Source: Halorhodospira halophila (GTDB taxonomy: Bacteria > Pseudomonadota > Gammaproteobacteria > Nitrococcales > Halorhodospiraceae). Taken from it: a stretch of 64,000 bases of DNA. Both the position numbers and the translations under genes were made by a program. Location: positions 1 through 64,000 of the forward strand of contig NZ_NHSN01000002.1 in NCBI RefSeq assembly GCF_016653405.1. Direction: 5' to 3'. The notes beneath the pieces are model-generated. The model made no database searches and was not told the origin of the DNA. It was given only the letters and a program-made list of their open reading frames with translations. How positions within the stretch are numbered: position 1 is the first letter of the stretch; every line of letters starts with the position of its first letter. Shown piece after piece: positions 9,180 through 40,433 of this stretch.

Positions 9180-9268
9180 CAGCTGATCGCCCCTGTGTCC
9201 AGAACGGTCACCCGGCACGCACCGCGAAGCCCCGCGGCCGGGCGAACCGTAAGCTGCCCACCCGGCTC

Positions 9269-9297
9269 ATGACAGTCAAGTTACAGTTTCATTGCAG
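9269..9297 (-). promoter_or_regulatory. PhoB box array for the Na/Pi cotransporter
   Basis: On the minus strand the half-sites CTGCAAT (9297-9291), CTGTAAC (9286-9280) and CTGTCAT (9275-9269) repeat at exactly 11-base pitch. These match the E. coli pho-box half-site very closely. Unlike the other arrays in the window, no convincing -10 lies 10 bases downstream (GGCAGC there); CAGCTT at 12 bases is a weak candidate. Confidence 0.82.
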
Positions 9298-9324
9298 CCA
9301 ATAGGCCGAGCGCCCTGCCCAGGG

Positions 9325-9762
9325 TCACCCCGAGGGGCGCACCCAGGCGGTGATCCCCACCATCCGCTCGATACGCACCCGATCGCCCGGACGCAGCTCC
9401 TGCCCGTCGGCCCCGCGCGCGGGGAAGACCTCGTCATCGACCAGCACTCCGATCCCCTGCCCCCGCCGAACCAGGACACCGCATCGTCCTGCATAGGCAT
9501 CGGCCGGGGCGACCATCCGGTGGGCGTAGGCCCCGGCAAAACGCTGCGCAAGGCGGTAACCGGTCGGCAGGAGGATCAGTGTGGTGACCAGATAGATCAG
9601 CAGCTGGTGAGAGACGGCCATGTCCGCCTTCACTGACGTCACCACCGCCAGAACGAAGGCGGCCACGGCCAGATCCACCAGGAACAGGTGACCACCGAAG
9701 AGAGCCGCTGTCACGAGTAGCAGGATGCCGCCGGCCAGCCAGATCCAGGATGGGTCGAACAT
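9325..9762 (-). CDS. NfeD-like membrane protein
   Basis: A 145-residue protein with hydrophobic segments at residues about 5-22, 27-45 and 53-70 and a C-terminal beta-rich OB-fold-like part (AGRCGVLVRRGQGIGVLVDDEVFPARG...), the layout of short NfeD/YbbK proteins. NfeD proteins usually partner stomatin/SPFH proteins, which are not found beside it here. The ATG at 9762 follows a GGAGGT site. The 3' end lies just beyond the Pho array that drives the neighbouring carrier, so it is a separate leftward gene whose transcript may run into that carrier. Confidence 0.75.
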   Translation of the reverse strand: MFDPSWIWLAGGILLLVTAALFGGHLFLVDLAVAAFVLAVVTSVKADMAVSHQLLIYLVTTLILLPTGYRLAQRFAGAYAHRMVAPADAYAGRCGVLVRRGQGIGVLVDDEVFPARGADGQELRPGDRVRIERMVGITAWVRPSG

Positions 9763-9972
9763 GCACACCTCCAGCTCGCGGCCACTTTCAGTCTAATCCA
9801 CAAAAACTGTGGAAGGCCCTGTGGAAAACCCTGCCCCGCCCCGATCCCGTGCGGACCTGCGGCAGGTGGCGATTTTTTCGCCGGCTAGCCGCACCCACCC
9901 CGGGGTACGCTATCCTGAGCGGCCGAAACCGGACGCCGGCTCTATTCCCTGGCTCATCAACGAAGGTCTTTG

Positions 9973-16970: not shown

Positions 16971-17026
16971 CCGTCATGCAAATGTCACGCGAACGGCATC
17001 GCCACGTCACGGCAGACTGCCAGGCT
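16971..17026 (+). promoter_or_regulatory. PhoB-type promoter for the small HTH gene
   Basis: Four half-sites repeat at exact 11-base pitch: CCGTCAT (16971-16977), ATGTCAC (16982-16988), ACGGCAT (16993-16999) and ACGTCAC (17004-17010). Ten bases later CAGGCT (17021-17026) can serve as the -10, the same spacing as in the other arrays here. This leaves a leader of about 45 bases before the ATG at 17079. Confidence 0.8.
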
Positions 17027-17078: not shown

Positions 17079-17297
17079 ATGGCCCGCAAGAGCCCCACGG
17101 AGCTTTACCACACCGCGCTGCGCATGTACCGGCACGGCTGGACGATCGAGCAGATCGCCGACGAGCTGGCGATCCACCCGCAATCGCTGCGAACGTGGCT
17201 GACGGCCCCGGTGTATCCGGCTGCCCGCCGTAAGCACCCGACTCATGGCTACCCCGCAGAGCCCCGCCAAGTCAAACCCCAGCGGGCAGCACTCTGA
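17079..17297 (+). CDS. Small helix-turn-helix protein, predicted member of the Pho regulon
   Basis: A 72-residue basic protein. Residues about 6-44 form a helix-turn-helix of the homeodomain-like/transposase-HTH kind (MYRHGWTIEQIADELAIHPQSLRTWL); the remaining 28 residues are a Pro/Arg/Lys-rich tail with no clear fold. A consensus ribosome site (AAAGGAG) precedes the ATG. It has its own four-site PhoB-type promoter and lies just before the Pho-controlled ABC importer, which has a separate promoter. It could be a local regulator acting below PhoB. No transposase or other mobile-element trace adjoins it. The family is otherwise not recognised. Confidence 0.8.
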   Translation: MARKSPTELYHTALRMYRHGWTIEQIADELAIHPQSLRTWLTAPVYPAARRKHPTHGYPAEPRQVKPQRAAL

Positions 17298-17414
17298 TCT
17301 GACCCGCGCAGGGCGGACGATACGGCTGTCCGCCGCTCACCCCTCTCCTCACAGCACCCCCTGCCCCTAGCGCCGGCATACGCCGCGCGCCGTCTGTGCC
17401 CGCGTGCAAACAGC

Positions 17415-17481
17415 CCGCAACCGCAACGTCTTCCCACCGTTATCCGGCCGTAACCGAACCGCAACAAGCGGCTCCCATACT
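17415..17481 (+). promoter_or_regulatory. PhoB-type promoter for the ABC importer operon
   Basis: CCGTTAT (17437-17443), CCGTAAC (17448-17454) and CCGCAAC (17459-17465) are at 11-base pitch; in the same register a further CCGCAAC is at 17415-17421. CATACT (17476-17481) begins exactly 10 bases after the last site and fits a -10. The half-sites depart from CTGTCA at positions 2 and 5, so this is a somewhat weaker array than those of NptA or the pyruvate kinase. Confidence 0.72.
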
Positions 17482-17517
17482 GCCGCACTGTTCCCACCGC
17501 AACTGAACAGGTGCGCC

Positions 17518-18666
17518 ATGAGTCGACCCCAAACCTCCCGGCACGATGCCGCCCGCATCGGCCTTCCCAGCCCGGGCACGCGCAGCGCCGTGCTCGCCCT
17601 CATCGCCGGAGGTATCCTGATGACGGCGGGCTGCTCCGGCGACGAGGACGTCCCGACCGGCGCGATCGATGCCGATGACGTGGACGCCGGTCAGGTCGAG
17701 CTGCGCGACGACGTGCTCACCGTCTACCTCCACGACCACGGCGATGCCATCGCCGAGCGGTTTACCGACGACACCGGGATCCCGGTCCAGATCGTGGACA
17801 TGAGCGGCGGCGAGATCCTCGCCCGCATCGAGGCGGAGCGCGCCAACCCGCAGTGGGACGTGGTCTACGTCCAGGGCCACGGCAGCGTGAACCGCCTCTA
17901 CCAGGAGGGACAGCTCCTCGACGATGGCTGGCAGCCGGACAACGCGGCTCGCTACAACGACCTGGGCCGCCAGATCTACGACCAGGACCCGGATGCGGCG
18001 TGGTGGCCGGTCACCGTCAACGCCCCGGCGCTCCTGGTCTACAACCCGAACTGCGCCGACACGGAGCGGGTCGAGGAACTCGGCTGGGATGCCCTGCGCG
18101 ACCCGGCCTTCGAGGGCAAGGTCGGCATGCCCGACCCGGCCATCTCGGGCCCGGCCTACCCCTACGTGTCCTGGTTCTTCGAGGAGAGCATGGACGACGG
18201 CTACGCCTTCTGGGAGGACGTTTTCGACAACGGGGTCCGCATGTACCGCTCCAACAGCCCGGTGGCCGAAGCCCTGGCGGCCGGGGACATCTGCGTCGCC
18301 GGCCTTGAGGAGCCGAACACCTACGGCGAGGTGGAGAAGGACGCCGACATCGAGATCGTCTACCCCGCGGAGGGCACCCCCGGGGCCGCCCGCGCCACCG
18401 GGATCAGCGCCGACACCACCGTGGCCGATGACGCCCGGGCCTTCATCGAGTGGATGCTCGAGGCGGACACCCAGACCTATCTCACCCAGATCGAGCACCG
18501 CAACAAGTACTTCGTGCCGCTGGTCGAAGGCGCCGATCCCAACGAGCTGCTGCCGCCGAACGAGTTTCTCGACCGTGTGACCCCTTACGAGTTCACGGAC
18601 TACGAGTGGGCCGGCGACGTCGAGAACGAGATCAAGCAGTGGTTCGCCGACCAGTCGGGGTCGTGA
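17518..18666 (+). CDS. ABC importer substrate-binding lipoprotein (iron/2-aminoethylphosphonate type)
   Basis: A 382-residue exported protein. A long hydrophobic leader ends in the lipobox MTAGC, so the mature protein is probably a lipoprotein anchored at the outer face of the inner membrane. The rest resembles the periplasmic binding proteins of Fe3+ and 2-aminoethylphosphonate importers (VYLHDHGDAIAERFTDDTG; WPVTVNAPALLVYN; RSNSPVAEALAAGD). The acidic residue content is high. Its PhoB-type promoter favours a phosphorus compound over iron. Start at ATG 17518; a weak ribosome site. The ligand is not proven. Confidence 0.85.
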   Translation: MSRPQTSRHDAARIGLPSPGTRSAVLALIAGGILMTAGCSGDEDVPTGAIDADDVDAGQVELRDDVLTVYLHDHGDAIAERFTDDTGIPVQIVDMSGGEILARIEAERANPQWDVVYVQGHGSVNRLYQEGQLLDDGWQPDNAARYNDLGRQIYDQDPDAAWWPVTVNAPALLVYNPNCADTERVEELGWDALRDPAFEGKVGMPDPAISGPAYPYVSWFFEESMDDGYAFWEDVFDNGVRMYRSNSPVAEALAAGDICVAGLEEPNTYGEVEKDADIEIVYPAEGTPGAARATGISADTTVADDARAFIEWMLEADTQTYLTQIEHRNKYFVPLVEGADPNELLPPNEFLDRVTPYEFTDYEWAGDVENEIKQWFADQSGS

Positions 18667-18670
18667 GCCG

Positions 18671-20470
18671 GTGCAGGCAGCTCGACTCTCTCAGGTAGCA
18701 ACCAGCACCATCGCCCGGCAGGCGGCCCGCAGCGGGGCCGCATTGACCGGGCGGTGGCGCCGCCTTTCCGGCCCGGGGGACCGATCAGTGGCTTGGGCGG
18801 TGACGGCCGCCCTGATCGTTTTGGTCGGACTCCCGCTGGCCGCCATGCTGGCCCACCTGGCCTTCCCGCAGCTGTACCTGGGCAGCCTGCAACTCGGCAA
18901 TTTCGATCTGTTCAGCGACCTGTGGGAACGCAGCCTCTGGCGCAACGCGGTGCGCAACTCGCTGCTGCTCGGCCTTGGGACGATGGTCCTCGGCGCGGCC
19001 ATTGGCGTCGGACTCGCCTGGATGCGGCACCACTGGCGCTTCCCGGGATCGGGGTTGATCGACTTCTCCGCCTGGTTCGTCCTGGTGATGCCGTCGTTCA
19101 TCATCGCCCAGGGCTGGGTGCTCTTCGCACGCAGCGGCGGCACCGCCTCGCTGCTCGGCATCCCCTGGGCCGGGGACGTCATCTTCTCGTTGCCGGGGCT
19201 GATCCTGGTGATGAGCCTGGCCAACTTCCCGCTGGCCTACCTGGCCTTCAGCGCCGCGCTGCAGTGGGACGTCAGCCGGTACGAGCACGCCGCCCGGCTC
19301 TCCGGCGCGCGGCCGTGGACGGTTTTCCGCGCCATCCGGCTACCACTGCTCCTCCCGGCCCTGCTGGCCGCTGGCATCCTCGTCTTCGTGGATACCATCG
19401 GTGACTTCGGGCTGCCAGCCGCCTTCATCTCGGTGTTCCGTTTCCCGCTCATTCCCTACGTCATCCGCACCGAGATCCAGACCGTACCCGTGTCTTTTGA
19501 GGGGGCCGCCGTGCTGGCCGCGGTCCTGGTCTCGATGGTTGCCGTGGCGATCGCCATCCAGATCCGTGTGCTGCGCGGCGGCGGCCGGGATTTCCTCACC
19601 GCGGCGGCAACGCCGCGGCAGCGCCCCAGGCCCCGGTTCTGGCCGCTCCTCTCGGCGATCACCTTCGCGTTCCTCGGCCTGGCGGTCTTCGCCCCGCTGG
19701 GAACCAGCCTCTCCGTCTCGTTCATGGAGCGCTACGGGGCCGGCCTGAGCTGGGACAATCTCACCCTGGCCAACTACCAGGCCGTGCTATCCAGCGGCTC
19801 GGCCTTGCTGCCGGCGCTCAAGAACAGCTTCGGCATCGCCTTCGCCGCTGCCGCCATCGCCCTGGTCATTGGCTTCCTGGCGGCGTATCTGCTGGCCTAC
19901 AGCGGGCACCGGCTGCGGCGCTTTATCGATGTGGCCTCGACCGTCACCCTGGCAGTTCCCGGCATTGTTCTGGCCGTAGGCTACATCTTCTGGTGGAACC
20001 AGCGCTGGCTGGCCGACATCGGCATCCAGGTCTACGGCAGCGGCTGGGCGATTGCCCTGTGCTCGGCAGCGGCCTCGGTGCCCATCGCCGTGCGGGTTTT
20101 GCTCGGCGCCATGTCCCAGACGCCGGGATCGTTCCTGTCGAGCGCCGCACTCCAGGGAGCTGGCCTGTGGACGCGCATCCGCGCCATCCTCCTGCCGCTG
20201 ACCCTCTCCGGCCTGCTCTCCGCCGGCCTCGCTGTATTCGCCACCAGTGTCTTCGACCTGGCCATCACCACCATGCTACAGCCGCCGGGCTTCCCGACCA
20301 TCCCGGTGATCATCGACGAGCATTTCCGCACGGTGCAGTACGAATGGGCGACCGCCGCTACGGTCGTGGTCTGCCTGATCACCGCAGCGGTCATCGTCAC
20401 GGTCCGTTTCAGCGCCCGACGGCTGTTCCGTAGCTACTTCGAAACCACGACGGAGACATCACGATCATGA
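18671..20470 (+). CDS. ABC importer permease with two fused membrane domains
   Basis: A 599-residue permease with about 12 membrane segments and two BPD_transp_1 modules (residues about 90-290 and 370-580), each with an EAA-type loop (YEHAARLSGARPWTVFRAIRLPLL and FLSSAALQGAGLWTRIRAILLP). This double-permease form is typical of FbpB/AfuB and PhnU/V-like systems. It follows the binding protein by four bases and overlaps the ATPase gene by four, so the three form one translationally coupled operon. Confidence 0.92.
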   Translation: MQAARLSQVATSTIARQAARSGAALTGRWRRLSGPGDRSVAWAVTAALIVLVGLPLAAMLAHLAFPQLYLGSLQLGNFDLFSDLWERSLWRNAVRNSLLLGLGTMVLGAAIGVGLAWMRHHWRFPGSGLIDFSAWFVLVMPSFIIAQGWVLFARSGGTASLLGIPWAGDVIFSLPGLILVMSLANFPLAYLAFSAALQWDVSRYEHAARLSGARPWTVFRAIRLPLLLPALLAAGILVFVDTIGDFGLPAAFISVFRFPLIPYVIRTEIQTVPVSFEGAAVLAAVLVSMVAVAIAIQIRVLRGGGRDFLTAAATPRQRPRPRFWPLLSAITFAFLGLAVFAPLGTSLSVSFMERYGAGLSWDNLTLANYQAVLSSGSALLPALKNSFGIAFAAAAIALVIGFLAAYLLAYSGHRLRRFIDVASTVTLAVPGIVLAVGYIFWWNQRWLADIGIQVYGSGWAIALCSAAASVPIAVRVLLGAMSQTPGSFLSSAALQGAGLWTRIRAILLPLTLSGLLSAGLAVFATSVFDLAITTMLQPPGFPTIPVIIDEHFRTVQYEWATAATVVVCLITAAVIVTVRFSARRLFRSYFETTTETSRS

Positions 20471-21639
20471 CCACGACGAAACCCGCCAACCGGGCACAGG
20501 CCGCCGGCGTGGAGGTGGACGCCGTCAGCCGCCACTTCGACGGGGTCCCGGCGCTGGGACAGGCCTCCCTGAACATCCACCCCGGCGAGGTAATCGCCAT
20601 CCTCGGCCCTTCCGGTTGCGGGAAGTCCACGCTGCTTCGCCTGATCGCCGGGCTCGACACGCCCAGCGCGGGGGCCATCCGCATCGGCGGCCGGTGCGTA
20701 TCCCGGCCCGGCGCCGTCGTTCCGCCCGAGCAGCGCCCCGTGAACATGGTCTTCCAGGACTTCGCCCTGTGGCCGCACATGACCGTGGAGCGCATTGTCC
20801 GCTTCGGTATGCGTCATCGCGGTGTGCCCAAGGCCGTGTGGGCTTCGCGCACGGCGGAGCTGCTCGGCATGCTCGGCCTGGACGGGATGGCACAGCGCTA
20901 CCCGCGCCAGCTCTCCGGCGGGCAGCAACAGCGGGTGGCCATCGCACGCGCGCTGGCCACGGACCCGCAGGTGCTTCTGTTCGATGAGCCCCTGTCCAAC
21001 CTCGATGCCCAGCTGCGGATCCAGATGCGCATCGAGCTCGCCGAGCTGCTGCAGCGGCTCGAGACCACTGCCATTTACGTCACCCACGATATCCACGAGG
21101 CGGTCGCCCTAGGGCACCGGCTGGTGGTCATGCGCGGCGGTCAGGTCGAGCAGGTGGGCTCGGCGAAGGAGGTCTTCCAGTCGCCGTCGAACGCCTGGAT
21201 TGCCGGCCTGGTGGGCTACAACAACCAGCTGCAGGCCGAGATCGTCGGCCACGATGGCGAAGGCCGCCTCAGCGTCCGCAGCGGCGGCACGCACATGACG
21301 GTTCGCGGCCATGCCCGGGGCGAGCCCCGCGGCACTGGAGCCACGGTCCGCATCCGTCCGGAAGCCATCCGTCCGCTGCGCGCGGACGAGCCAGCACGCG
21401 CCGACGAGCAGCTGGTCACGGCCACCGTGGAGCAGTGCTGTTTCGAGGGTTACCACTGGCGGGTGGTATGCCGCCTCGGCGATGAGCCGCTGACGTTCTT
21501 TTCCCGCCATCCGCTGGACGCCGCCGGCCCCGTGCAGCTGGCCATCGATACCGAAGGGACCTGCGCCTACAGCGACGAGCCAACCGCTGCCAACTCCGCC
21601 CCGGAAGGCGCCGCAGACTGCCAGCTGCGGACAGCCTGA
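20467..21639 (+). CDS. ABC importer ATPase (FbpC/PhnT-like)
   Basis: A 390-residue ATP-binding subunit. Walker A is GPSGCGKST (residues about 48-56), the signature is [15 protein letters not shown], Walker B is [12 protein letters not shown], and the H-loop is YVTHD. A TOBE-like domain (residues about 280-365) forms the C-terminus. It powers import by the double permease. It starts in an ATGA overlap with the permease. The substrate group is shared between Fe3+, 2-aminoethylphosphonate and related compounds; the Pho-type promoter supports a phosphorus source. Confidence 0.92.
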
Positions 21640-21652: not shown

Positions 21653-21708
21653 CTGTCATCCCCGGCTCACGCAGCCATCACGACCCTGCAACATGGCCCC
21701 CGCAGACT
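21653..21708 (+). promoter_or_regulatory. PhoB-type promoter for the GT4-PAP2-arsC operon
   Basis: Half-sites CTGTCAT (21653-21659), GGCTCAC (21664-21670), CCATCAC (21675-21681) and CTGCAAC (21686-21692) are all at 11-base pitch. CAGACT (21703-21708) begins 10 bases after the last one, the same hexamer and spacing as at pstS. A start of transcription near 21715 would fall almost on the ATG at 21717. Confidence 0.78.
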
Positions 21709-21718
21709 CGGGGGCCAT
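21693..21718 (+). promoter_or_regulatory. Hairpin covering the glycosyltransferase start
   Basis: ATGGCCCCCG (21693-21702) and CGGGGGCCAT (21709-21718) are exact complements around CAGACT. It may end read-through from the ABC operon upstream, or, in longer transcripts, hide the start codon at 21717. Its loop is the proposed -10 hexamer. Confidence 0.5.
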
Positions 21719-23437: not shown

Positions 23438-23476
23438 ACTCGGGAGCTACCGCGCCCCCATCCATGGAGGACGCCC

Positions 23477-26798: not shown

Positions 26799-26809
26799 CG
26801 GCGGTCTCC

Positions 26810-27667: not shown

Positions 27668-27678
27668 AGCTCCCTCTC

Positions 27679-29355: not shown

Positions 29356-29374
29356 CGTTGCGGCATCCTCCGTA

Positions 29375-31708
29375 TCAGAGCGCGCTGTACTTCTTGCGCA
29401 GGCGGTGGCGCACGATCTCCGCCACGGTGTTGACCGCGAAGGTCAGGACGAAGAGCACTAAGGCGGCAAGGAATAGGATCCGGTAGTGGCTGCTCCCCTG
29501 CGCGGTCTCCTTCATCTCCACAGCGATGTTGGCCGAGAGCGTGCGCATGCCCTCGAAGAGGTTGAAATTGGTGACTGGCGAGTTGCCGGTGGCCATGACC
29601 ACGATCATGGTCTCGCCGACGGCCCGGCCGAAGCCGATCATCACCGCCGAAAAGATGCCGGGGCTGGCCGTCAGCAGGACCACGGTGGCCACTGCCTGCC
29701 AGGGCGTCGCGCCGAGCGCCAAGGCCCCCTGCGAGAGGTGGCGCGGCACGTTGAACACCGCATCCTCGGAGATGGAGAAGATCGTCGGGATCACCGCGAA
29801 GCCCATGGCGATCCCCACAACCAAGGCGTTGCGCTGGTCGTAGTCGATCCCCTGATTGGTGAGCCACTGGCGCATATCACCGCCGAAGAAAGCGAGCTCC
29901 ATGTAGGGACTGGCGGTGACGCCGAGCCACCCGACCCCGATCACCACCGGGATCAGCAGTGCGGCCTCCCAGCCCGGCGGCACCCGGCTGCGGATGCCCT
30001 CGGGGAAGACCCGGGTCCACAGCCAAGCGGCCATCACCATGGCGATAGGCAGGGCGATCAGGATGGAGAAGACTGCCGGGAGATTCCGCTCGAAAAACGG
30101 CGCAGCCCAGAGCCCCGCGAGGAAGCCGAGGATGACCGTTGGCAGCGCCTCCATGATCTCGATGGCGGGCTTGGTCATCTGCCGCATGCGTGCGGACATG
30201 AAGTAGGCCGAGTAGATCGCCCCGAGGATCGCGATGGGTGTCGCAAAGAGCATGGCGTAGAACGCCGCCTTCAACGTGCCGATGGTCAGCGGTACCAGCG
30301 AGAACTTGGGCTCGAACTCGTCGGTAGCGGAAGATGACTGCCAGACGTAGGCGGGCGCATCGCGGCCCTCGTACCAGACCCTCTGCCACAGGGCCTTGAA
30401 CGAAACCTCCGGGTGCGGGTTGTCGACGTCCAGGTAGTTGAACCGCTCGTTGGCACCGACGGCCATCAGCGCGTTCTGTCGCGGCGCCATCGACAGCGCG
30501 GCCACTGAGGGGCCGCCCTCCAGCGCCAGCTGCGTCAACGTGCGCGACGAGGTGGCATAGTGCAGCTGCAGCGTGCCGTCGGCGGCGCCGGTAGCGAAGC
30601 CTTTACGGGCGTGCTCCGGTGCGATGCCGGTCACCGCCGCCGGGTGGCCATCGAAGGTACGGATGCGCGTAAGCTGCCGATCCCCCGCCTCGTCCCGGGT
30701 CACCATGTATTGTGACACCGATCCGTCGGAGCCACCGGCGATCATCGACGCGGCCCCGAGCAGGAACTGAAGCTGCGTGACCTCGGCATCGTCCCCCTCG
30801 ATTGCGCGCACTGTGCCGACCAGACGCGGGCGGTTCAGGTTTGAGACATCGAAGTAGTGCAACCGCCCCTTGGCATCGCCAACGAAGAGGTTACGCATGG
30901 TGGTGTCGAGGAGGATCCGTGTGACCTCGATTCCCGACTCCGGCCAAGGCAGGTCGTAGACCTCGCGCTCAACGGTCGCCTCACCGGTGATGAAGTCCGT
31001 CTCCTCCTCGAAGAGCACCAGGCGCAGGGCCTCCTGCTCGTTGCTGGCACCCACCACGGCGGAGCCACGGCTCCCCCGCTGGACCCCGATGGCGTCGAGC
31101 GGATGGCCATCCTCGCCCCAGATCGCCAGGGGTTCGCCCTCGCCCTCCGGATAGGTGATCGACGGGGTGACCTGGCGCTCGCCGTCCGGGTAGCTGACGT
31201 CGTAGTCGTGACGGGCGAAGATCGCCGTGCCGTCATCGAGGCCGTAGCCCACCAGCCGATGGCGGGCTTCGGCCGTGTCGAAACTGCGGATCTGTGCCCC
31301 GGACGGCTTGTTCAGCTGCCCCTGCTCGATCAGCTCGCCGCTGCGGGGGTCGAAAAAGGCGTAACCGGCCCGGTCGGTGAAGCGCACCCCGACCTCGCGG
31401 TAGCGCTCCATGGCGACGTGGACCGTCTCGCCAAGTTCCGGTCCGCCGGGGGCGGCGTAGCTGGCGGCGGGCCGGATCTCCGGCTCGCCAAAGATGGGCA
31501 TGGTTTCGGAGAAGAGGTAGACGAACATCAGCGCCAGCGCGCCGATGACCCCCACGCCGAAGGTGGCCACGCTGCCACGACTGATCCAGTCCTTGGCCCC
31601 GCGCCAGCGGCGCAGGCGGCGCCGACGGGCCGCGTCCGGCAGGCCCCGGGACGGACCCTTGCCACTGCCTCGGCCCGGTTCGGTGAGCCCTGTCGTCTGA
31701 TCGCTCAT
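29375..31708 (-). CDS. pstC: Phosphate ABC importer permease PstC, long form
   Basis: A 777-residue PstC. After one membrane segment (residues about 45-70) comes a periplasmic insert of about 380 residues with repeats resembling a beta-propeller (for example GYGLDDGTAIFARHDY, VGDAKGRLHYFDVSN, ATGAADGTLQLHYA), then the usual permease domain (about 490-770). It pairs with the long PstA. The start MSDQTTG at 31708 was preferred to 31723. It has its own PhoB-type promoter and leads pstC-pstA-pstB-phoU, separate from pstS. Confidence 0.95.
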   Translation of the reverse strand: MSDQTTGLTEPGRGSGKGPSRGLPDAARRRRLRRWRGAKDWISRGSVATFGVGVIGALALMFVYLFSETMPIFGEPEIRPAASYAAPGGPELGETVHVAMERYREVGVRFTDRAGYAFFDPRSGELIEQGQLNKPSGAQIRSFDTAEARHRLVGYGLDDGTAIFARHDYDVSYPDGERQVTPSITYPEGEGEPLAIWGEDGHPLDAIGVQRGSRGSAVVGASNEQEALRLVLFEEETDFITGEATVEREVYDLPWPESGIEVTRILLDTTMRNLFVGDAKGRLHYFDVSNLNRPRLVGTVRAIEGDDAEVTQLQFLLGAASMIAGGSDGSVSQYMVTRDEAGDRQLTRIRTFDGHPAAVTGIAPEHARKGFATGAADGTLQLHYATSSRTLTQLALEGGPSVAALSMAPRQNALMAVGANERFNYLDVDNPHPEVSFKALWQRVWYEGRDAPAYVWQSSSATDEFEPKFSLVPLTIGTLKAAFYAMLFATPIAILGAIYSAYFMSARMRQMTKPAIEIMEALPTVILGFLAGLWAAPFFERNLPAVFSILIALPIAMVMAAWLWTRVFPEGIRSRVPPGWEAALLIPVVIGVGWLGVTASPYMELAFFGGDMRQWLTNQGIDYDQRNALVVGIAMGFAVIPTIFSISEDAVFNVPRHLSQGALALGATPWQAVATVVLLTASPGIFSAVMIGFGRAVGETMIVVMATGNSPVTNFNLFEGMRTLSANIAVEMKETAQGSSHYRILFLAALVLFVLTFAVNTVAEIVRHRLRKKYSAL

Positions 31709-31747
31709 GATCTTTGATCGCACCCTGCGAGAAATGAACGCTGACGC

Positions 31748-31792
31748 AGCCTAAGGGGGGCGGATGACGGTTTCGTGACGAAACGATGAACA
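31748..31792 (-). promoter_or_regulatory. PhoB-type promoter for pstC-pstA-pstB-phoU
   Basis: On the minus strand TGTTCAT (31792-31786), TCGTCAC (31781-31775) and CCGTCAT (31770-31764) are at 11-base pitch, and TAGGCT (31753-31748) begins exactly 10 bases after the last. The predicted leader before pstC is about 33 bases. Confidence 0.85.
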
Positions 31793-31893: not shown

Positions 31894-32859
31894 TTACAGA
31901 CCGAGACGCTCGCGCTCGCGCTCGGCGGCCTGTGCGGGCATGGGGATGAAGCCGTCGCGGCGGACCACGTCCTGGCCTTCCTCGGAGAGGACCAGCTTCA
32001 GGAACTCCCGCTCGATGGGCGGCAGTTCGCCGTTGGGGTCCTTGTTCACGTAGACGTAGAGGAACCGCGACAGCGGGTAGTCGCCGCTGACCGCATTCTC
32101 GGCGTTGGGCTCGTAGAGGTTGTCCTCGTCGTCGCCCAGGGCGATCGCCTTCACACCGGAGGTCTGGTAGCCGATCCCGGAGTAGCCGATGCCGTTGAGC
32201 GACTCGGACACACCCTGGACCACCGAGGCGGAGCCCGGCTGCTCGTTGATGGCGTCCTTAAAGTCGCCGTCGCACAGGGCGTGCTCGCGGAAGAAGCCGT
32301 AGGTGCCGGAGACGGCGTTGCGGCTATAGAGCGTGATGTCCCGATTCTGCCAGGGGCCGTCCAGCCCCACGTCGCCCCAGCGCGTGACATCGCTGCCACC
32401 ACAGCGCTGCGTGGCCGAGAACATCCCGTCCACCTGCTCCATGGTCAGCCCGTCGATCGGATTGTCGCGGTTGACGAAGACCGCGATGGTGTCGATGGCC
32501 ACCCGCACCTTGGTGGGCTCGTAACCGTGGGCATCCTCAAAGCTCTCGATCTCCGAGGAACGCATATCCCGGCTCATCGGGCCGAAGTTCGCAGTCCCCT
32601 CGGTCAGCGCCACCGGCGCCGTCCCCGAGCCGGCCCCCTCGATCTCCACCGAGACGTTGGGGTAAAAATCCTGGAACTCCTCCGCCCATAGCGTCATCAG
32701 GTTGTTGAGGGTATCCGAGCCCTGACTGCCCAGGTTGCCGGAAATGCCCGAAACCCGCTCGTAATTCGGCAGGTCGTCATCCACCTCGGCAGCACCCAGC
32801 GGCCCGCCGGCCACCAGGGCCATGCTGGCCATGCCCAGGAAACAACCTCTCTTCCACAT
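31894..32859 (-). CDS. pstS: Phosphate-binding periplasmic protein
   Basis: A 321-residue exported protein. The signal peptide ([19 protein letters not shown]...) is followed by the PstS core: [38 protein letters not shown] and [11 protein letters not shown], all phosphate-site segments. It delivers phosphate to PstCAB. The ATG at 32859 was chosen because the longer reading frame runs back into phoR. It has its own PhoB-type promoter, located in the end of phoR, as expected for the most abundant Pst component. Confidence 0.96.
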
Positions 32860-32910: not shown

Positions 32911-32966
32911 AGTCTGCGCCGCTTCCCTTACCGGCTCGTGAAGGCAGGGTGACGATTCGATGAAAC
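32911..32966 (-). promoter_or_regulatory. PhoB-type promoter for pstS, overlapping the phoR 3' end
   Basis: On the minus strand GTTTCAT (32966-32960), TCGTCAC (32955-32949), CCTTCAC (32944-32938) and CGGTAAG (32933-32927) run at 11-base pitch. CAGACT (32916-32911) begins exactly 10 bases after the last. The first three half-sites and part of the fourth lie inside the phoR reading frame. The leader before pstS is about 45 bases. Confidence 0.82.
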
Positions 32967-34268
32967 GCCGTCGCGCTCCAAAGTCCGCGCCGGGAAGACC
33001 AACGTGAAGGTGGATCCCTGGTCGGGCTCGCTGCGCACGTTCAGCCAACCACCGTGGCGATGCATCACGTGCTTAACGATGGCCAGCCCCAGCCCGGTAC
33101 CCCCGGTGGCGTTGGAGCGGGCCTTGTCCACCCGATAGAAACGCTCGGTGATCCGCGGCAGGTGCTCGCGCGGGATGCCGATGCCGCTGTCCGCGACCTC
33201 GCACCGGGCCGTGTGCGCATCGGCCTGCCAGCGCACGCGGATGGCACCACCGCCCGGTGTGTAGCGCACGGCGTTAGAGACCAGGTTCGCAACCGCGCTG
33301 CGCAACTCTCCGTACGATCCGCGCACGAACAGGCCCGGCTCCGCCTCAAGCTCTATCCGATGATTCTGGTCTCCAGAGAGCGTCCGCGCCTCGGCACAGA
33401 CCTCCTCGAGCAGGGCCTGCATATCCACCGGATCCTCTTCCTCAGCCAGCGACCCGGTCTCCAGTCGGGACAGGGTTAGCAGATCCTGGACCAGTCGCTG
33501 CATCCGCGCGGATTGCTCCTGCAGCAGCCGAATCGATCCCGCCCAACCCGGTTGCTCCGGGGCCAGCTCCTCACCCATCTCCTCGGCAACGCCGTAGATC
33601 ACGGTCAAGGGGGTCTTGAGCTCGTGGGACACATTGGCCACGAAGTCCCGCCGGATCGTCTCAAGCCGCTGCGTGCGGCTGATATCGCGGGCGATGAGCA
33701 ACCGCTGATTGCGGCCGTAGGGGACCAGACGAAGCTCCAGTGTGATCCGCGGGTCGACCGGCGACGGCATGGTCAGCGGCGCGCTGTGTTTGGTGGCGGT
33801 ATCCAGGAAGGCCCTGAACTCCGGTTGCCGGAGCAGGTTGCTGATACGCTGCCCCTCGTCGCCCGGCCAGGTCAGGCCGAGGAGCTCGCGTGCCGCATTG
33901 TTCCACCAGAGCAGACGATCATCGGCGTAGAGCACCATGGTGGCATCGGGCATCGCCTTGGCGGATTCCCGGTACTCGCGGATGACCCGGCGCAGCCGGT
34001 GCCTGCGCTCCCGCTGTCGGCGCTGGCGGCGATGCAGGGCATGGAACACCTCGCCCCAGACCCCGCGGGAGATGGGCGGATCCAGCTTGCGGCCGACCCG
34101 CAGCCAGCGCTCCAGCCGCCAGAGTTGATACTGGTTCCACAGGTAACCCAGCGCCAGCAGGATCGCCGCGGCCTCCACCCACCAGCCGGTGGCCAGCCCG
34201 GCAATCAACCAGACCGCCAGCGCGGCGAGGAGCGTCAGCAGAAACCCCGGCCAGGGATTGCGTGTCAT
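32928..34268 (-). CDS. phoR: Phosphate-sensing histidine kinase
   Basis: A 446-residue PhoR. Two N-terminal membrane segments (residues about 5-45) lead to a basic linker, a PAS domain (about 105-200), HisKA with the phospho-acceptor in [12 protein letters not shown], and HATPase_c with [20 protein letters not shown] and [12 protein letters not shown] boxes. It phosphorylates PhoB in phosphate starvation under PstSCAB-PhoU control. It lies 24 bases after phoB, so the pair is one operon; pstS follows with an extra promoter. Confidence 0.96.
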
Positions 34269-34292
34269 GGAATCCGCTCTCTCAGCCGCGGA

Positions 34293-34982
34293 TCAGGTCT
34301 GTTCCGAGAACCGATAGCCGGCCCCACGGACCGTCTGGACCAGGGCGTCGTGGCCCGTCGCGGCCAGGATCTTGCGCAGTCGGCGGATGTGCACATCCAC
34401 GGTGCGCTCTTCGACATAGACATTGGTGCCCCAGACCTGATCGAGCAGCTGCGTGCGGGTAAAGACGCGATCGGGATGCGCCATGAAGAATCGCAGCAGC
34501 CGGTACTCGGTGGGACCGAGTTCCAGCGACTGGCCGTGTCCGGTGACCCGGTGGCTGACCGGATCCAGGCGCAGGCCGGCCGCCTCCAGGGGGGCATCGG
34601 TTGTCGCCGGGGCCGTGCGCCGGAGGACGGCCTTGACCCGGGCAGCCAGCTCGCGCGGCGAGAACGGCTTGGTCACGTAATCATCCACCCCGGAATCGAA
34701 GCCCCGCACCTTGTCCTCCTCCTCACCCCGGGCGGTGAGCAGGATGATGGGGATCCCGCGGGTCTGCTCATCCTCCTTGAGTCCCCGCGCCCACTCGACA
34801 CCGCTGACCTGCGGCAGCATCCAGTCGAGCAGAATCAGATCCGGCGGCCGCTCGCGCAGCTGCTCCGAGGCCTGCATGGCATCAACCACCGGTATGACGT
34901 CGAACCCCTGCCGCTCGAGGGAGGTGATCAGCATCTCACGCACCGCCGAGTCGTCCTCAACCACGAGTATCCTTGCTGCCAT
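34293..34982 (-). CDS. phoB: Phosphate regulon response regulator
   Basis: A 229-residue OmpR/PhoB-type regulator. The receiver domain has the acidic pair D10-D11, phospho-acceptor D53 (ILLDWMLP) and a conserved Lys (TKPFSPREL); the winged helix has [15 protein letters not shown] and [14 protein letters not shown]. It should bind the 11-base-pitch arrays in this window. Two such half-sites and a TTTAAT -10 stand upstream of it, so it probably activates its own synthesis. Confidence 0.97.
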
Positions 34983-35026: not shown

Positions 35027-35060
35027 ATTAAAAGGCAAGCACATTGCAGGATTGTGACAA
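35027..35060 (-). promoter_or_regulatory. PhoB-type promoter for phoB-phoR
   Basis: On the minus strand TTGTCAC (35060-35054) and CTGCAAT (35049-35043) are 11 bases apart, and TTTAAT (35032-35027) follows after exactly 10 bases. The leader before phoB is about 38 bases. Only two half-sites are clear, the minimum for one pho box. Confidence 0.75.
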
Positions 35061-35065: not shown

Positions 35066-35121
35066 GCTTCACACAAACCCCACACCACCGTCATCGCGAC
35101 GTAAGAAACACCGCCTAGCGT
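35066..35121 (+). promoter_or_regulatory. PhoB-type promoter for the porin
   Basis: GCTTCAC (35066-35072), ACCCCAC (35077-35083), CCGTCAT (35088-35094) and ACGTAAG (35099-35105) repeat at 11-base pitch; TAGCGT (35116-35121) begins exactly 10 bases later. The array begins six bases beyond the phoB array, pointing the other way. Confidence 0.78.
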
Positions 35122-35179
35122 GTCCTCCGAGTCGGGGCCGTGCTCCCCGGCGACGCTCCAAACCCGAGGAGGACCCTTG

Positions 35180-36361
35180 ATGACAACGAGACGAATCGCG
35201 CCGTACCTCTCGACCACCGCCCTGCTGGGCGCGGGCCTGGCCGTGGCCTTCCCCTACGAGGCTCTGGCCAACCCCGAGTTCGACATCCGCGGCCGGCTGC
35301 AGATGGACTACCACATGATCGACGAGGACGAGACCGACTTCGTCGACGGCTTCAACAACCGTCGCGCCCGCCTGGGCATGGACGGCAGCATTGACGAGCA
35401 CTGGGACGGCCGGGTGGAGATCAACGTGGCCGAGGGTGGCGTCAGCGCCGCTGACTTCCGCCTGCGCCGCAGCCTCGGCCCGGGGCGGCTGTGGCTGGGT
35501 CAATACAAGGTGCCGCAGGGTCTGAACCAGCTGACCAGCTCCAACAACTACACCTTCATGGAGCGCTCCTCGGTCAGCAACATCATCCCCGACTCGCGGC
35601 GCATCGGTATCGCCTATGAGCAGACCGGCGACGAGCTCGGCTTCAAGACCATGTTCTTCGGCCGATCGCTGGGGGACGGCGGTGAGTACGACGGCGATCA
35701 GCCCAAGGGCTACGCGGTGCGCGGCGTCTACGCCCCGTTCCTGACCGCCTCCCGCCACAACGAGGCGCCGCGGCTGCACCTGGGCGCCTCGCTGGTCTAC
35801 GAGGACCAGGACGAGCCGCACGAGCTTGGCTTCAGCGATCGCCCCGAACTGCGCGATGGCGACGGCGGCGGTACCCGCCTGCTTGAGGTTGACGGCGTCT
35901 CCGACGTGACCGACACCACCAAGCTCGGCCTGGAGGCGGCCTACATCGCCGGCCCCCTCTCCGCCGAGGCGGAGTACCTCACCGTCTCGATGAACCGCGA
36001 CAACAGCGACGAGCCCACCTTCAGCGGCTGGCACGTCCAGGGCAGCTACGTGCTCACCGGCGAGAGCCGCACCTACTCCACCGGCGGCTTCGGCGGCGTC
36101 ACCCCCAGCGGCTCCGGCGGGGCGTGGGAGCTGGCGGCCCGCTACAGCCACATGGACCTGAACGACTCCGGGTTCGAAGGCGGTGAGCAGAACAACGTCA
36201 CCCTGGGTATCAACTACTACGCCAGCAGCAACCTGCGCTTTATGGGCAACGTCGTCTTCGCCGACGTCAAGGACCGCAGGGAAGACGGCCTCCCGGGACG
36301 CGATGTCCTCCCGGACGAGAGTCCGACCCTGGTCGGCTTCCGCGCCCAGTACAACTGGTAG
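35180..36361 (+). CDS. Phosphate-starvation porin (OprO/OprP-like)
   Basis: A 393-residue outer-membrane protein. A signal peptide (residues 1-about 30, ending YEALA) precedes a beta-barrel of the phosphate-selective porin O/P family (FDIRGRLQMDYH; FNNRRARLGMDGSIDEHWDGRVEINV; RLWLGQYKVPQGLNQLTSSNN). The C-terminus ends in an aromatic residue (AQYNW), the usual barrel-assembly signal. It should let phosphate or polyphosphate cross the outer membrane. Acidic loops are abundant, as in halophiles. GGAGGA ribosome site. Selectivity is inferred from the family and its PhoB-type promoter. Confidence 0.92.
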   Translation: MTTRRIAPYLSTTALLGAGLAVAFPYEALANPEFDIRGRLQMDYHMIDEDETDFVDGFNNRRARLGMDGSIDEHWDGRVEINVAEGGVSAADFRLRRSLGPGRLWLGQYKVPQGLNQLTSSNNYTFMERSSVSNIIPDSRRIGIAYEQTGDELGFKTMFFGRSLGDGGEYDGDQPKGYAVRGVYAPFLTASRHNEAPRLHLGASLVYEDQDEPHELGFSDRPELRDGDGGGTRLLEVDGVSDVTDTTKLGLEAAYIAGPLSAEAEYLTVSMNRDNSDEPTFSGWHVQGSYVLTGESRTYSTGGFGGVTPSGSGGAWELAARYSHMDLNDSGFEGGEQNNVTLGINYYASSNLRFMGNVVFADVKDRREDGLPGRDVLPDESPTLVGFRAQYNW

Positions 36362-36439: not shown

Positions 36440-36516
36440 GGGTGCTCCCTCTGGCCACGGCCAGCTTCGGGCGGCGGTCCAGTCGGGCCGCCGCCGCTTT
36501 CTCGGTAGCCAACACC

Positions 36517-38262
36517 ATGACCGAATTCGCATTGAAATCGGCGTCGCTCGATGCGGTCATCCAAGGTGGAGGGCTCCGCCCGTTCTTTCAGCCGATCCTG
36601 GATACCCGCAGCGGCGATATCTTCGGGTATGAAGCCCTGATCCGTGGCCCGGTCTGCACCGACCTGGCCACGCCCGCCGCCCTATTCCAGGCGGCGGCCG
36701 AGCAGGACAGGCTGCTGGAGCTGGACTGGGCGGCACGCCGCGCGTGTATCCAACGGTTCGCGTCGCTGGACCTACCCGGGCTCCTGTTCATCAATGTCAT
36801 GCCCCAGTCCTTGCTCGACCCGACCTTCCAGCAAGGACTTACGCTGCATTTCCTCCATGAGTACGGCGTATCGCCACATCGGGTCATCATCGAACTCACC
36901 GAACAACACCCCATCCACGACTACACGCTGCTCGGCGAGGCTGTCGCTCACTACCGGCGCATGGGCTTCCGCGTGGCGCTGGATGACCTCGGCACCGGCT
37001 ATTCCGGATTGCGCCACTGGTCGGAGTTGAAACCGGATTTCGTCAAGATCGACCGCCACTTCGTGCAGCAGATCGACCATGACGCGGGCAAGCGCCGTTT
37101 CATGGAGTGGCTTCAGGAGGTCGCCGCCGACCTCGACTGCCAGGTCATCGCCGAAGGGGTCGAGACGCAGGGGGAGTATGACTGCCTCTGGGCCCGCAAT
37201 TGGCGCCTGATGCAGGGGTTCTTTTTCGCCCGTCCAAGCGCCGTACCGCCCCGGAAGCTCGATTGCGCCGCCGGATCGAATCGCCGACACACGAGCCCCC
37301 CACGGGGGACCGTCGCCTCGCTCTCCCGACGGTGCGCGACCGTTGCCGCGGAGACTCCGATGGCTGAAGTGGCCCAGCTGCTCCGATGTGCCGAACAGCC
37401 GCCGCGGACCATCGCGGTGACCGAGGGGACAGAGCCGGTCGGCCTGATCCGTACCTCCCGATTCCTGTCCCGATTCGCCAACCCCTACGCCCACTCCCTT
37501 TACGGCAGACGGCCTGCCCGGGCTTTCGCCGATCCTGAGACACGATTCGTCCAGGAGGACACCTCGCTCGAGGACCTCAGCCGGCAGCTCACCGAATGCA
37601 ACGAAACCATCGAGGAAGATTTCATTATCGTGGACACAGCCGGCCGATACGCGGGAACCGCTTCCGCAATCGACCTGCTACGCGAGATCACCAACCTACA
37701 GTTACGCAATGCCCGGCACGCCAACCCGCTAACGGACCTCCCCGGCAACGTCCCCATCAAAGAGGAGCTTGCGCGCCGCCTGGCCACAGAGAGGGCATTC
37801 GTGGTCGTTCACTGCGATATCGATGCCTTCAAGGCGTTCAACGATTACTACGGGTATGCTCAGGGTGATCAACTCATCCAGGCCCTGGCGGACACACTCC
37901 GGCAACAACTGCATGAGCGCGACGACTTCCTCGGACACATCGGGGGCGACGACTTTCTCATGATCCTCGGACCGGAGTCCTGGCAAGCGAAGTGCGAATC
38001 CGTGCTGGCGCGTTTCGCATGGCTGGCGCCGGAGCATTACGACGCCCATGCCCGCGGCCGTGGCGGTATCGAAAGCATCGATCGACAGCAGCGGCGTCGT
38101 TTCTTCCCCATTTGCAGCCTGTCGCTGGCCGTCCTGCCCGTGACGGCGGCGCGCTACAGCCAGCCCCACGAGATCTCCGATACGCTGGCCGAACTCAAGG
38201 CTCAGGCAAAGCGTGAGCCCGGCAACTCGATCTTCGTGGAGCGGCGAACAGCCGCCGAGTGA
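36517..38262 (+). CDS. EAL-CBS-GGDEF cyclic di-GMP enzyme
   Basis: A 581-residue cytoplasmic protein with EAL first (residues about 15-245), a CBS-pair-like middle (about 275-395) and GGDEF last (about 410-575). EAL keeps the key residues (EALIRGP, ELTE, ALDDLGTGYSG, FVKIDRHF, EGVET, QGFFFARP), so phosphodiesterase activity is likely. The GGDEF motif is altered to GGDDF and no RxxD inhibitory site is seen, so cyclase activity is doubtful. It follows the Pho-controlled porin after hairpins and may respond to nucleotide through the CBS part. Pho-linked EAL proteins (RapA) are known elsewhere. Confidence 0.9.
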   Translation: MTEFALKSASLDAVIQGGGLRPFFQPILDTRSGDIFGYEALIRGPVCTDLATPAALFQAAAEQDRLLELDWAARRACIQRFASLDLPGLLFINVMPQSLLDPTFQQGLTLHFLHEYGVSPHRVIIELTEQHPIHDYTLLGEAVAHYRRMGFRVALDDLGTGYSGLRHWSELKPDFVKIDRHFVQQIDHDAGKRRFMEWLQEVAADLDCQVIAEGVETQGEYDCLWARNWRLMQGFFFARPSAVPPRKLDCAAGSNRRHTSPPRGTVASLSRRCATVAAETPMAEVAQLLRCAEQPPRTIAVTEGTEPVGLIRTSRFLSRFANPYAHSLYGRRPARAFADPETRFVQEDTSLEDLSRQLTECNETIEEDFIIVDTAGRYAGTASAIDLLREITNLQLRNARHANPLTDLPGNVPIKEELARRLATERAFVVVHCDIDAFKAFNDYYGYAQGDQLIQALADTLRQQLHERDDFLGHIGGDDFLMILGPESWQAKCESVLARFAWLAPEHYDAHARGRGGIESIDRQQRRRFFPICSLSLAVLPVTAARYSQPHEISDTLAELKAQAKREPGNSIFVERRTAAE

Positions 38263-38347: not shown

Positions 38348-40252
38348 CTACTCGTCCGCCGCAGGCTGCGGCGCCGGCTGATTCTGCACAATGCCGAGCG
38401 CCCGCAACCGAGGGGTCTTCTTGCGCTGGTGCTGCTGCATTCGATGGAGGATACCGTCGAGCGTGCGCAGGGCCGTCACGATGTAGGGCCCCTTGTTCAG
38501 CATCACGCACTCGGCGCGGCCGGACATCGCCGCATCGGTCAGTTCCGGGCGCGAGGCAATGCCTTTCTTGGCCAGGCTCTCCAGGACCTGCGTGGCCCAG
38601 ATCACCGGCACGTGGGCAGCCTCGCAGAGCCAGAGCAGTTCCTCCTGAACCTCTGCAAGACGCTCGCCGCCGATCTCCACGGCGAGATCCCCCCTGGCGA
38701 TCATCACGCCCAGATCGAAGCGCCCCATCCCGCCGAGCAGGATGTCCGGTAGGTTCTGCACGCCGCGTTGGGTCTCGATCTTGGCGATGACACCCAGGTC
38801 CACGGCGCCGCGCCGGGCCAGCGCCGCCCCCAGGGCTTCCAGATCCGAGCGGGACTCCGTAAAGGAAAGAGCCACCGTGTCCGCGAGCTCGGCGACGAAA
38901 TCCAGATCCTGCTCATCCTGCGCGCTCAGCGCCGGCAGACCCAGATCGAGCCCTGGAAAGTTCAGGCCCTTGTCTTCATGCAGCACGGCACCCTGCGGAC
39001 GGCTCCGCGTAATGCGCAACCGGGCGCCGTGGGCGTCGACACACTCCACCTCGGCACCGATCTTGCCGTCGTCGATCCACACCGCCTGGCCAGGGCCGAG
39101 CTGGTCGATCACCTGCGGGTGCGAGCACGCGATGCGCGCGGGCACAACCATCCCCCCGTCCTCGTCCCGCCGCCCGGGGGTTCCCGGCTCGAGCCGACGC
39201 AGGAGCACCAGGGTGTCCCCTTCAAAAAGGCGGATTTCCATCTGCGCTTCCGCAAATCCCCCGCACCGGAGGCCGCGAATCACGGTCTGCCACTTACCAG
39301 CGCCCCGCCGTTGGAGGGCAAAGCGGGTCCTGGGCGTCACGTAAGCCGTGCTCCCGATATCCGCCCGAAAGCCGCCCGGGATCGCCTCGCGGACCGCCAG
39401 CAGGCGACTGGATTTCCGGGCATCCCGAAAGCGCAGACGGTCCCCGACCCTCATACTGGCCAGAGTTTCACTGTCCAGGCAGAGACGGGGGACACCGCCC
39501 CGGCCGGTGTCACCGATCTGCTCAGGGTGCACCAGATCGACCTGTGCGCGTCGAACGGTCCGGCCGTAGGCATCCCGCATTGGTTTCAGCCGAACCACTG
39601 GAGTTCGCGGGGCAACAGGGCCGGTGCGCACCTTATGGCCAGCCAAGTCCATGTGGACCCGACAGGAACGCCCGGTACGGGCCTCGGCGTCCCGCACATG
39701 CCGAGCCATGCGGCGCCACATGGCCGGATCGTCGTGGGCGCAGTTGATTCGCGCCATATCCATCCCGGAAGCGACCAACGAGCGCACCAGATCCGGATCA
39801 TCGGCGGCGGCGGATGGCAGGGTCACCATGACACGGCTGTCACGGCCTTCCGGCACCGGACCGAGCAGATCGGCTGCATGCGTCGCCAGGCGGAGGTGGG
39901 CCTGCTCGAAAGTCGGTCCACCCCGCCTTCGTTGCGTCACCCGCCCGACCCGGGCACCCAGGGCCTCAATGACCTCATTCAAGCCCGCGAGTACATGGGG
40001 TTCGTGACGCCCCAGCGACGAAAGCCCGAAGCGGGCCAGGGAGCGCTGCACACTGCGCAGATCGCGGTTGCGCAATGCCAGGTAGTGGGCGAAGTTTTCG
40101 GCGCTGGTGGTGACCCCATCCGGGAAGGCGTCCTCGTAGCGACGCAGCCAACGCTCTGCGCCCTCCTCGATGTCCCAGCGCAGCGCCTCCAGGACGTCCA
40201 GCAAAGCCTCCGGCTGCCAGACAGAACCGTCGAATCCGGTTTTCTCGTTCAT
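38348..40252 (-). CDS. Atypical pyruvate kinase-like protein under a Pho box
   Basis: A 634-residue protein, longer than usual pyruvate kinase (about 470-500). Residues 1-about 138 are a helical extension of unknown function. A pyruvate kinase barrel follows from about 139 (MARINCAHDD replaces the usual RlNfSHG), with a large inserted B-type domain and then the catalytic Lys strand VIAKIETQRG, the metal loop MIARGDLAVEI and ATQVLESLAKKGIASRPELTDAAMSG. The C-terminal allosteric domain is missing. Key catalytic residues appear intact, so PEP to pyruvate conversion is possible, without the usual effector control. It has a near-consensus three-site PhoB array 27 bases upstream. Confidence 0.85.
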   Translation of the reverse strand: MNEKTGFDGSVWQPEALLDVLEALRWDIEEGAERWLRRYEDAFPDGVTTSAENFAHYLALRNRDLRSVQRSLARFGLSSLGRHEPHVLAGLNEVIEALGARVGRVTQRRRGGPTFEQAHLRLATHAADLLGPVPEGRDSRVMVTLPSAAADDPDLVRSLVASGMDMARINCAHDDPAMWRRMARHVRDAEARTGRSCRVHMDLAGHKVRTGPVAPRTPVVRLKPMRDAYGRTVRRAQVDLVHPEQIGDTGRGGVPRLCLDSETLASMRVGDRLRFRDARKSSRLLAVREAIPGGFRADIGSTAYVTPRTRFALQRRGAGKWQTVIRGLRCGGFAEAQMEIRLFEGDTLVLLRRLEPGTPGRRDEDGGMVVPARIACSHPQVIDQLGPGQAVWIDDGKIGAEVECVDAHGARLRITRSRPQGAVLHEDKGLNFPGLDLGLPALSAQDEQDLDFVAELADTVALSFTESRSDLEALGAALARRGAVDLGVIAKIETQRGVQNLPDILLGGMGRFDLGVMIARGDLAVEIGGERLAEVQEELLWLCEAAHVPVIWATQVLESLAKKGIASRPELTDAAMSGRAECVMLNKGPYIVTALRTLDGILHRMQQHQRKKTPRLRALGIVQNQPAPQPAADE

Positions 40253-40262
40253 AGCGCCACCG

Positions 40263-40307
40263 AGGCTAACCCCGCGCGGTGACAGCCGCGTGACAGGCCG
40301 GTGACGT
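40263..40307 (-). promoter_or_regulatory. Near-consensus PhoB promoter for the pyruvate kinase-like gene
   Basis: On the minus strand ACGTCAC (40307-40301), CTGTCAC (40296-40290) and CTGTCAC (40285-40279) repeat at 11-base pitch; TAGCCT (40268-40263) begins exactly 10 bases after the last. Transcription would begin near 40256, only a few bases before the ATG at 40252. Confidence 0.87.
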
Positions 40308-40377
40308 CCCGGACATCGTCCCACCGCTGGTGCTGCTCCTGAACCGGTCCCCGGTGCCATCGCTAGCCGCAGCCCGT

Positions 40378-40433
40378 GTGTCATCCGAACGTCATCGGCA
40401 TTTCAAAGGCCTGTAAGCGGCATTGCATACGGT
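40378..40433 (+). promoter_or_regulatory. PhoB-type promoter for the phnDCE-like operon
   Basis: GTGTCAT (40378-40384), ACGTCAT (40389-40395), ATTTCAA (40400-40406) and CTGTAAG (40411-40417) are at 11-base pitch; TACGGT (40428-40433) begins exactly 10 bases later. The leader before phnD is about 65 bases. Confidence 0.83.

Follow-up and report, generated by a model that had tools for sequence, protein, structure and literature searches.

In Escherichia coli, PhoB acts at Pho boxes that have been described as direct repeats with an 11-nucleotide (nt) period, in which 7-nt elements are separated by 4-nt gaps and held at a strict spacing to the core promoter, with pst, phoB, and phn genes among the targets (PMC4415409, PMC10294691, PMC4563254). 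We find this layout in a 64,000-nt stretch of the Halorhodospira halophila genome (contig NZ_NHSN01000002.1, positions 1–64,000; hereafter the window), where ten promoters are packed into 31 kb and include, unlike those of E. coli, ones for lipid, arsenate, porin, pyruvate kinase, and helix-turn-helix (HTH) genes. We put at close to nine in ten (0.88) the probability that this island gathers the core PhoB regulon around phoBR-pst and that PhoB control of its pyruvate kinase gene is conserved across many gammaproteobacterial families.

Two further described systems resemble parts of the island. Lipid renovation by PlcP-Agt in Pseudomonas aeruginosa likewise employs Pho-box-driven glycosyltransferases for glycolipids (PMC8528852), whereas the window has a GT4 glycosyltransferase gene with PAP2 and arsC-arsB; the arsenic gene island of Halomonas sp. 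HAL1 likewise clusters arsenic genes with pstSCAB under PhoBR control, although in that strain phoBR is on a separate contig and arsenite oxidase is the demonstrated PhoB target (PMC4563254). The H. halophila region holds a sodium/phosphate (Na/Pi) carrier, a 72-residue HTH protein, an ATP-binding cassette (ABC) importer, and GT4-PAP2-arsC-CBS-arsB, followed by phoU-pstBAC, pstS, phoR-phoB, a Porin_O_P gene, an EAL-GGDEF protein, a pyruvate kinase, and phnDCE. An earlier note on this DNA had described a regulon around phoB, and phoB-phoR-pst do sit among the arrays.

All ten arrays of that note, each with two or more 7-base direct repeats (half-sites) at the 11-base pitch of a Pho box, were found where it had placed them, and in nine the -10 hexamer starts exactly 10 bases past the last half-site; the Na/Pi promoter, at 17 bases, is the misfit. 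Thirty half-sites were read by hand, versus the 34 counted in that note. When each array in turn was removed from the matrix and scored against 366,280 background positions (183.7 kb of the same genome), nine of the ten outscored every one of these positions; the score of the phoB array was reached by 3 of them, and the Na/Pi array stands only narrowly above background (14.7 versus 14.3). In the ~185 kb of stretches scanned, the best array outside the island, at C2:74227, reaches 14.3 bits. With the full matrix, island half-site pairs have a -10 at spacing 10 in nine cases and at any other spacing from 4 to 19 in at most one, and pairs above 13 bits at pitch 11 number 15 in 36.3 kb there versus 3 in 212.4 kb outside.

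Pattern searches of the whole genome gave a similar picture. YGTMAY-N5-YGTMAY-N10-YANNNT, with at most one mismatch, has 10 matches, five in the island and five elsewhere, versus 4 for the backwards control; this pattern recovers only five of the ten island arrays, and weaker sites may exist elsewhere. CTGTCAY-N4-CTGTCAY, with at most two mismatches, has 23 matches versus 12 for its control; the single perfect CTGTCAY pair of the genome at 11-bp pitch is that of the kinase promoter, and the sole one-mismatch pair is the Na/Pi array. Neither the matrix (over 212 kb outside the island) nor the patterns (over the whole genome) found arrays of equal score scattered through coding sequence. The reading of these elements as PhoB-type promoters holds up well: they lie far above background, stand ahead of genes, and for the most part are found again in relatives before the corresponding genes. 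Fixed spacing and tandem sites are likewise present, but as a novelty they fall away, both being already in print; with Pho boxes and the strictness of their spacing long described, the island alone counts as an ordinary PhoB regulon, tightly packed. What is new is a pair of conserved, apparently undescribed PhoB targets within it, the pyruvate kinase and the small HTH gene, whose conservation goes beyond what the earlier note saw.

Kinase upstream regions were scored with a matrix that excluded the kinase array, p values being taken from first-order Markov resampling (loci sharing a family are not independent). The pooled set holds 57 usable loci from 38 families (L234, with its N-terminus missing, was dropped), of which 28 come from two orders picked after a good array was seen there. 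Across all 57, 35 regions carry an array at p≤0.01 and 42 at p≤0.05, and 22 of the 38 families have at least one at p≤0.01. The 29 loci drawn from the class and phylum samples gave 16 at p<0.01 and 20 at p<0.05 (class sample: 14/21 and 18/21), and the second set of 28 gave 18 and 22. The region upstream of the kinase is the top-scoring place of its own stretch (4–20 kb, mostly ~19 kb) in 14 of the 29 and among the best four in 18; in the second set, with shorter stretches, it ranks first in 17 of 28. No canonical pyk upstream region reaches p<0.05 (0/25), with each gene taken to begin at the earliest start codon of its open frame, such that some true promoters may be missed.

It is very hard to credit that a permissive matrix, run over short upstream regions, picked out the kinase and HTH arrays by chance. 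Control windows can score 12–15 bits (8 of 621 random ones reach 12.6), but only 31 of those 621 pass p≤0.05, the threshold passed by nearly three-quarters of the kinase regions, and 13 of 14 HTH regions in other genomes have an array at p≤0.02. Moreover, the geometry emerges when left free: in the 29 kinase regions pitch 11 yields 12 strong pairs and other pitches from 8 to 15 at most 3, and arrays picked by half-sites alone have a good -10 at spacing 10 in 9 of 15 cases, other spacings from 3 to 24 giving at most 4. The kinase also keeps phosphate-related company. It follows pstSCAB in L203 and GT4-PAP2 in L181, with arrays ahead of both operons, is divergent from pst in L186 and L204, and precedes pstS in Thiodictyon.

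Several observations weigh against a conserved PhoB-controlled kinase and a coherent island. Fifteen of the 57 kinase loci have no significant array (two of them, L181 and L203, lie in the operons with arrays ahead), and none was found in f164 (3/3 loci), in f254 (2/2), or at either of the two loci outside the class. Within the genus, the kinase array of G007 scores 27.9 and ranks first, that of G008 is weak (12.0), and G002 has no array directly ahead of the gene (2.0). The two named plasmid copies score weakly: the Marinobacter kinase array, whose -10 is poor, reaches 13.7 bits (rank 7 of 35,506), and the Thiodictyon kinase copy scores 5.8 and its pstS -2.5. On a tree of 58 kinases (43 with an array, window included) the label changes 11 times, versus a shuffled mean of 13.4 with 40 of 500 shuffles as low, so presence and absence of the array is scattered over the family. 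The PRK14725 kinase is also dispensable, since 25 of 30 genomes of one sample (G006 included) have only the canonical kinase and the G008 gene (L130 4805-6074) is broken by an internal deletion, residues ~308–513 being missing. The island as a conserved unit was rejected, its gene content being patchy and its HTH gene relocating (in G007 it lies among histidine kinases); the phnS2 importer gene has no array in G016 (-1.3) or G029 (4.8).

At seven kinase loci (L180, L182, L183, L189, L190, L204, and L235) a start codon lies exactly 6 bases past the predicted -10, which would give a leaderless mRNA. As a family rule, leaderless transcription was rejected: among the 37 loci scoring at least 12, this exact distance holds in only those 7, with 3 others at 7–8 bases, 3 overlaps that are not starts, and 24 at 17 bases or more. 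On plasmid pMAQU02 of Marinobacter nauticus (L236 7953-12065), the kinase is followed by an acetyl-CoA hydrolase/transferase gene and phbB (polyhydroxybutyrate synthesis), and a glycosyltransferase gene lies near it.

The window protein falls in family NF011314/PRK14725 (706.1 bits versus a cut-off of 642, for the longer open frame from 40384), a pyruvate kinase isozyme with an N-terminal extension and without the C-terminal regulatory domain. The family occurs in 22 of 274 genomes of the class sample and 9 of 397 of the phylum sample, the H. halophila genome being in both counts, and by order in 30 of 250 genomes (order of G391) and 2 of 6 (order of G109). The window kinase aligns to solved kinases over residues 139–211 and 370–608, and the intervening stretch, the site of the lid domain, appears longer than usual; AlphaFold2, run on the single kinase sequence, returned a mean pLDDT (predicted local distance difference test) of 39.2. 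The motifs around the catalytic residues, which we take to be R72, N74, D112, K117, R119, K269, E271, D295, and T327 (rabbit numbering), are kept in all 30 family members aligned, with the canonical Pyk of the same genome alongside. A Leu and a Lys of the window kinase sit at positions that presumably mark K+-independence.

An alternative, which we consider unlikely, accepts the arrays as PhoB sites and holds that the PRK14725 protein is not glycolytic, acting on another phospho-enol or phosphonate-derived substrate or as a phosphoenolpyruvate (PEP) phosphatase that releases phosphate. The kinase gene and phnDCE lie back to back, a canonical pyk is encoded as well (G000:C17), and the family has signatures of its own (CAHD, WATQVLE, and MLNKGP, nearly invariant across the 30 members), the window protein having no Pfam match to the pyruvate kinase C-terminal domain. 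The complete retention of the catalytic motifs argues the other way, as does Pyk2 of Corynebacterium glutamicum, which shares the layout (a 120-residue N-terminal extension, no C-terminal domain, and a catalytic domain A in two parts, 128–213 and 346–606) and is an active pyruvate kinase, activated by fructose 1,6-bisphosphate, that can replace Pyk1 in vivo and has a higher affinity for ADP than for PEP (PMC5112673). Pyk2 differs in being co-transcribed with ldhA and K+-dependent (PMC5112673), and the likeness is one of layout: two control genomes, that of C. glutamicum among them, match NF011314, and one of the two is over the cut-off. A PhoB-controlled pyruvate kinase is the reading we keep. 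In the literature searched (most subscription papers lie outside it), no report of such an enzyme in proteobacteria was recognized, the pyruvate kinase passages of PMC7244524, PMC12889132, PMC12604563, PMC4448153, and PMC6133358 included; neither "pyk" nor "pyruvate" appears anywhere in the main text of PMC10294691.

The small HTH protein matches HTH_23 marginally (24.9 bits versus a gathering cut-off of 24.6) and has no NCBIfam family near cut-off. Matches to it occur in 15 of 59 genomes (H. halophila included), and the 12 proteins compared have 60–76 residues, start MAR-[KS]-[SN]-P, and share a common HTH followed by divergent tails. When the matrix excluded the HTH array, 12 of the 13 significant upstream regions had the lowest possible p value, the region being the best place of its own stretch in 9 of 14 loci; L261 is the one failure (p=0.133), and L250 almost duplicates the window. 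The neighbors are phosphate or importer genes in four genus members and histidine kinases in G007, and in seven of the 14 loci (L256-L262, all of family f2) the gene lies directly before cydA, with an array in six of the seven, and with cydB and CydDC-like ABC genes following where the stretch extends that far.

Cytochrome bd was rejected as a PhoB target in its own right: among 30 cydA loci (L277 was excluded as too short, and further cydA matches without a locus were not counted), an array at p≤0.05 precedes cydA in 0 of 24 without the HTH gene and in 4 of 5 with it. Since the neighbors vary and cydA without the HTH gene lacks arrays, the array goes with the HTH gene and not with its neighbors. 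In family f2, phosphate starvation may switch on cytochrome bd. The likeliest single role for the HTH protein, still short of an even chance, would be that of a second regulator induced by PhoB.

Other OmpR/PhoB-family regulators bind tandem 7-bp repeats, and the assignment to PhoB draws on the CTGTCAY consensus and gene content. We nevertheless regard it as improbable that the arrays serve a different member of this family with 11-bp direct repeats: most of the targets are phosphate genes, phoB with an array of its own lies mid-island, and the matrix made from this island picks up phoB promoters from other genera, with 34 of 80 upstream regions scoring at p≤0.01 (32 of these within the first 40 loci) and 16 of 230 random windows at p≤0.05. 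PhoB stays the preferred regulator of the island promoters (Table 1). In G006, arrays recur before the Na/Pi, HTH, pstC, pstS, phoB, and porin genes, and several recur also in G008, G016, and G029, the pstC and pstS arrays each being found in both G006 and G008; porin upstream regions reach best scores of 16.4–26.1 bits in 7 other genomes. GT4 is absent from the G006 stretches read, and the importer is there reduced to a 31-residue remnant. Operon-internal genes (pstA, phoU, phoR, phnU2, phnC, and PAP2) score mostly at background, the exception being pstB of G002 (37.9), which presumably heads its own transcript.

Table 1. Genes of the island and the arrays ahead of them, in window coordinates.
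Feature	Position	Strand	Detail
Na/Pi cotransporter	7977-9218	-	PF02690
Array before Na/Pi cotransporter	9246..9297	-	CTGCAAT/CTGTAAC/CTGTCAT; TACGGT 17 bases past last half-site
Array before 72-aa HTH gene	16971..17026	+	four half-sites; CAGGCT at +10
72-aa stand-alone HTH protein, MARKSP... family	17079..17297	+	PF13384
Array before ABC importer	17437..17481	+	CCGTTAT/CCGTAAC/CCGCAAC; CATACT at +10
ABC importer: solute-binding protein, double permease, ATPase	17404..21639	+	top NCBIfam PhnS2/PhnU2/PhnT2, all under cut-off
Array before GT4-PAP2-arsC-CBS-arsB	21653..21708	+	four half-sites; CAGACT at +10
GT4-PAP2-arsC-CBS-arsB	21717-25909	+	
pstC-pstA-pstB-phoU	26058-31723	-	
Array before pstC-pstA-pstB-phoU	31748..31781	-	TCGTCAC/CCGTCAT; TAGGCT at +10
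pstS	31894-32859	-	
Array before pstS	32911..32955	-	three half-sites; CAGACT at +10
phoB-phoR	32928-34982	-	
Array before phoB-phoR	35027..35060	-	TTGTCAC/CTGCAAT; TTTAAT at +10
Array before Porin_O_P gene	35088..35121	+	CCGTCAT/ACGTAAG; TAGCGT at +10
Porin_O_P gene	35120-36361	+	PF07396; open frame, true start must be downstream
Pyruvate kinase, NF011314/PRK14725, 634 aa	38348..40252	-	706.1 bits (longer open frame from 40384)
Array before pyruvate kinase	40263..40307	-	ACGTCAC/CTGTCAC/CTGTCAC; TAGCCT at +10
Array before phnD-phnC-phnE	40378..40433	+	four half-sites; TACGGT at +10
phnD-phnC-phnE	40506-43134	+	

The genome (G000) comprises 2.86 Mb in 45 contigs and contains two reaction-centre genes; the organism is photosynthetic and probably a halophilic purple bacterium. 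The GC content of the window is 65–69%. Against the equivalog profiles of the 2-aminoethylphosphonate importer PhnSTU2 (TIGR03261, TIGR03262, and TIGR03265), the importer scores 82.2, 114.6, and 315.6 bits, all below the cut-offs (392.75, 593.25, and 457.7); its start codon is probably the ATG at 17518. At the GT4 promoter, the ATG lies 8 bases past the -10 hexamer CAGACT, and this hexamer forms the 6-base loop of a perfect 11-bp inverted repeat at 21692-21719. PstC (29375-31723, - strand) has 782 residues, with a middle part that is weakly WD40-propeller-like, below Pfam cut-offs. The EAL-GGDEF protein (36442-38262, + strand) has an intact EAL motif, a GGDDF motif, and a marginal CBS match (24.3 versus 24 bits); its open frame begins 80 bases past the porin stop codon. 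The gene may be co-transcribed with that of the porin, and turnover of cyclic di-GMP may therefore come under PhoB.

By analogy with work in E. coli, dimers of phosphorylated PhoB (PhoB~P) would bind head-to-tail across the two to four half-sites, the last half-site would stand in for a -35 element, and PhoB would hand sigma-70 a weak -10 exactly 10 bases downstream. Such binding, the induction that would follow, the functions of the targets, and the metabolic role of the kinase we infer. On phosphate starvation, the cell would increase phosphate and phosphonate uptake, replace phospholipids via GT4-PAP2, clear through arsC-arsB the arsenate that enters with phosphate, and switch on both the pyruvate kinase isozyme and the tiny HTH protein; the kinase would most likely sustain the conversion of PEP to pyruvate and ATP as adenylates and sugar phosphates drop, with carbon and phosphate thereby freed.

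We lean toward the view that the gammaproteobacterial Pho regulon has two unrecognized, widely conserved members, a distinct pyruvate kinase isozyme that would bring the last step of glycolysis under PhoB and, within the taxonomic order of the window, a stand-alone HTH protein of 60–76 residues that would serve as a PhoB-induced second-tier regulator, with cytochrome bd downstream of it in one family. Plants alter the PEP-to-pyruvate step under phosphate starvation; a PhoB-controlled pyruvate kinase, if true, would mean that phosphate governs this metabolic node in bacteria too, and would give a little-studied enzyme family a testable role, and the HTH protein, if it acts as proposed, would add a second tier of phosphate control.

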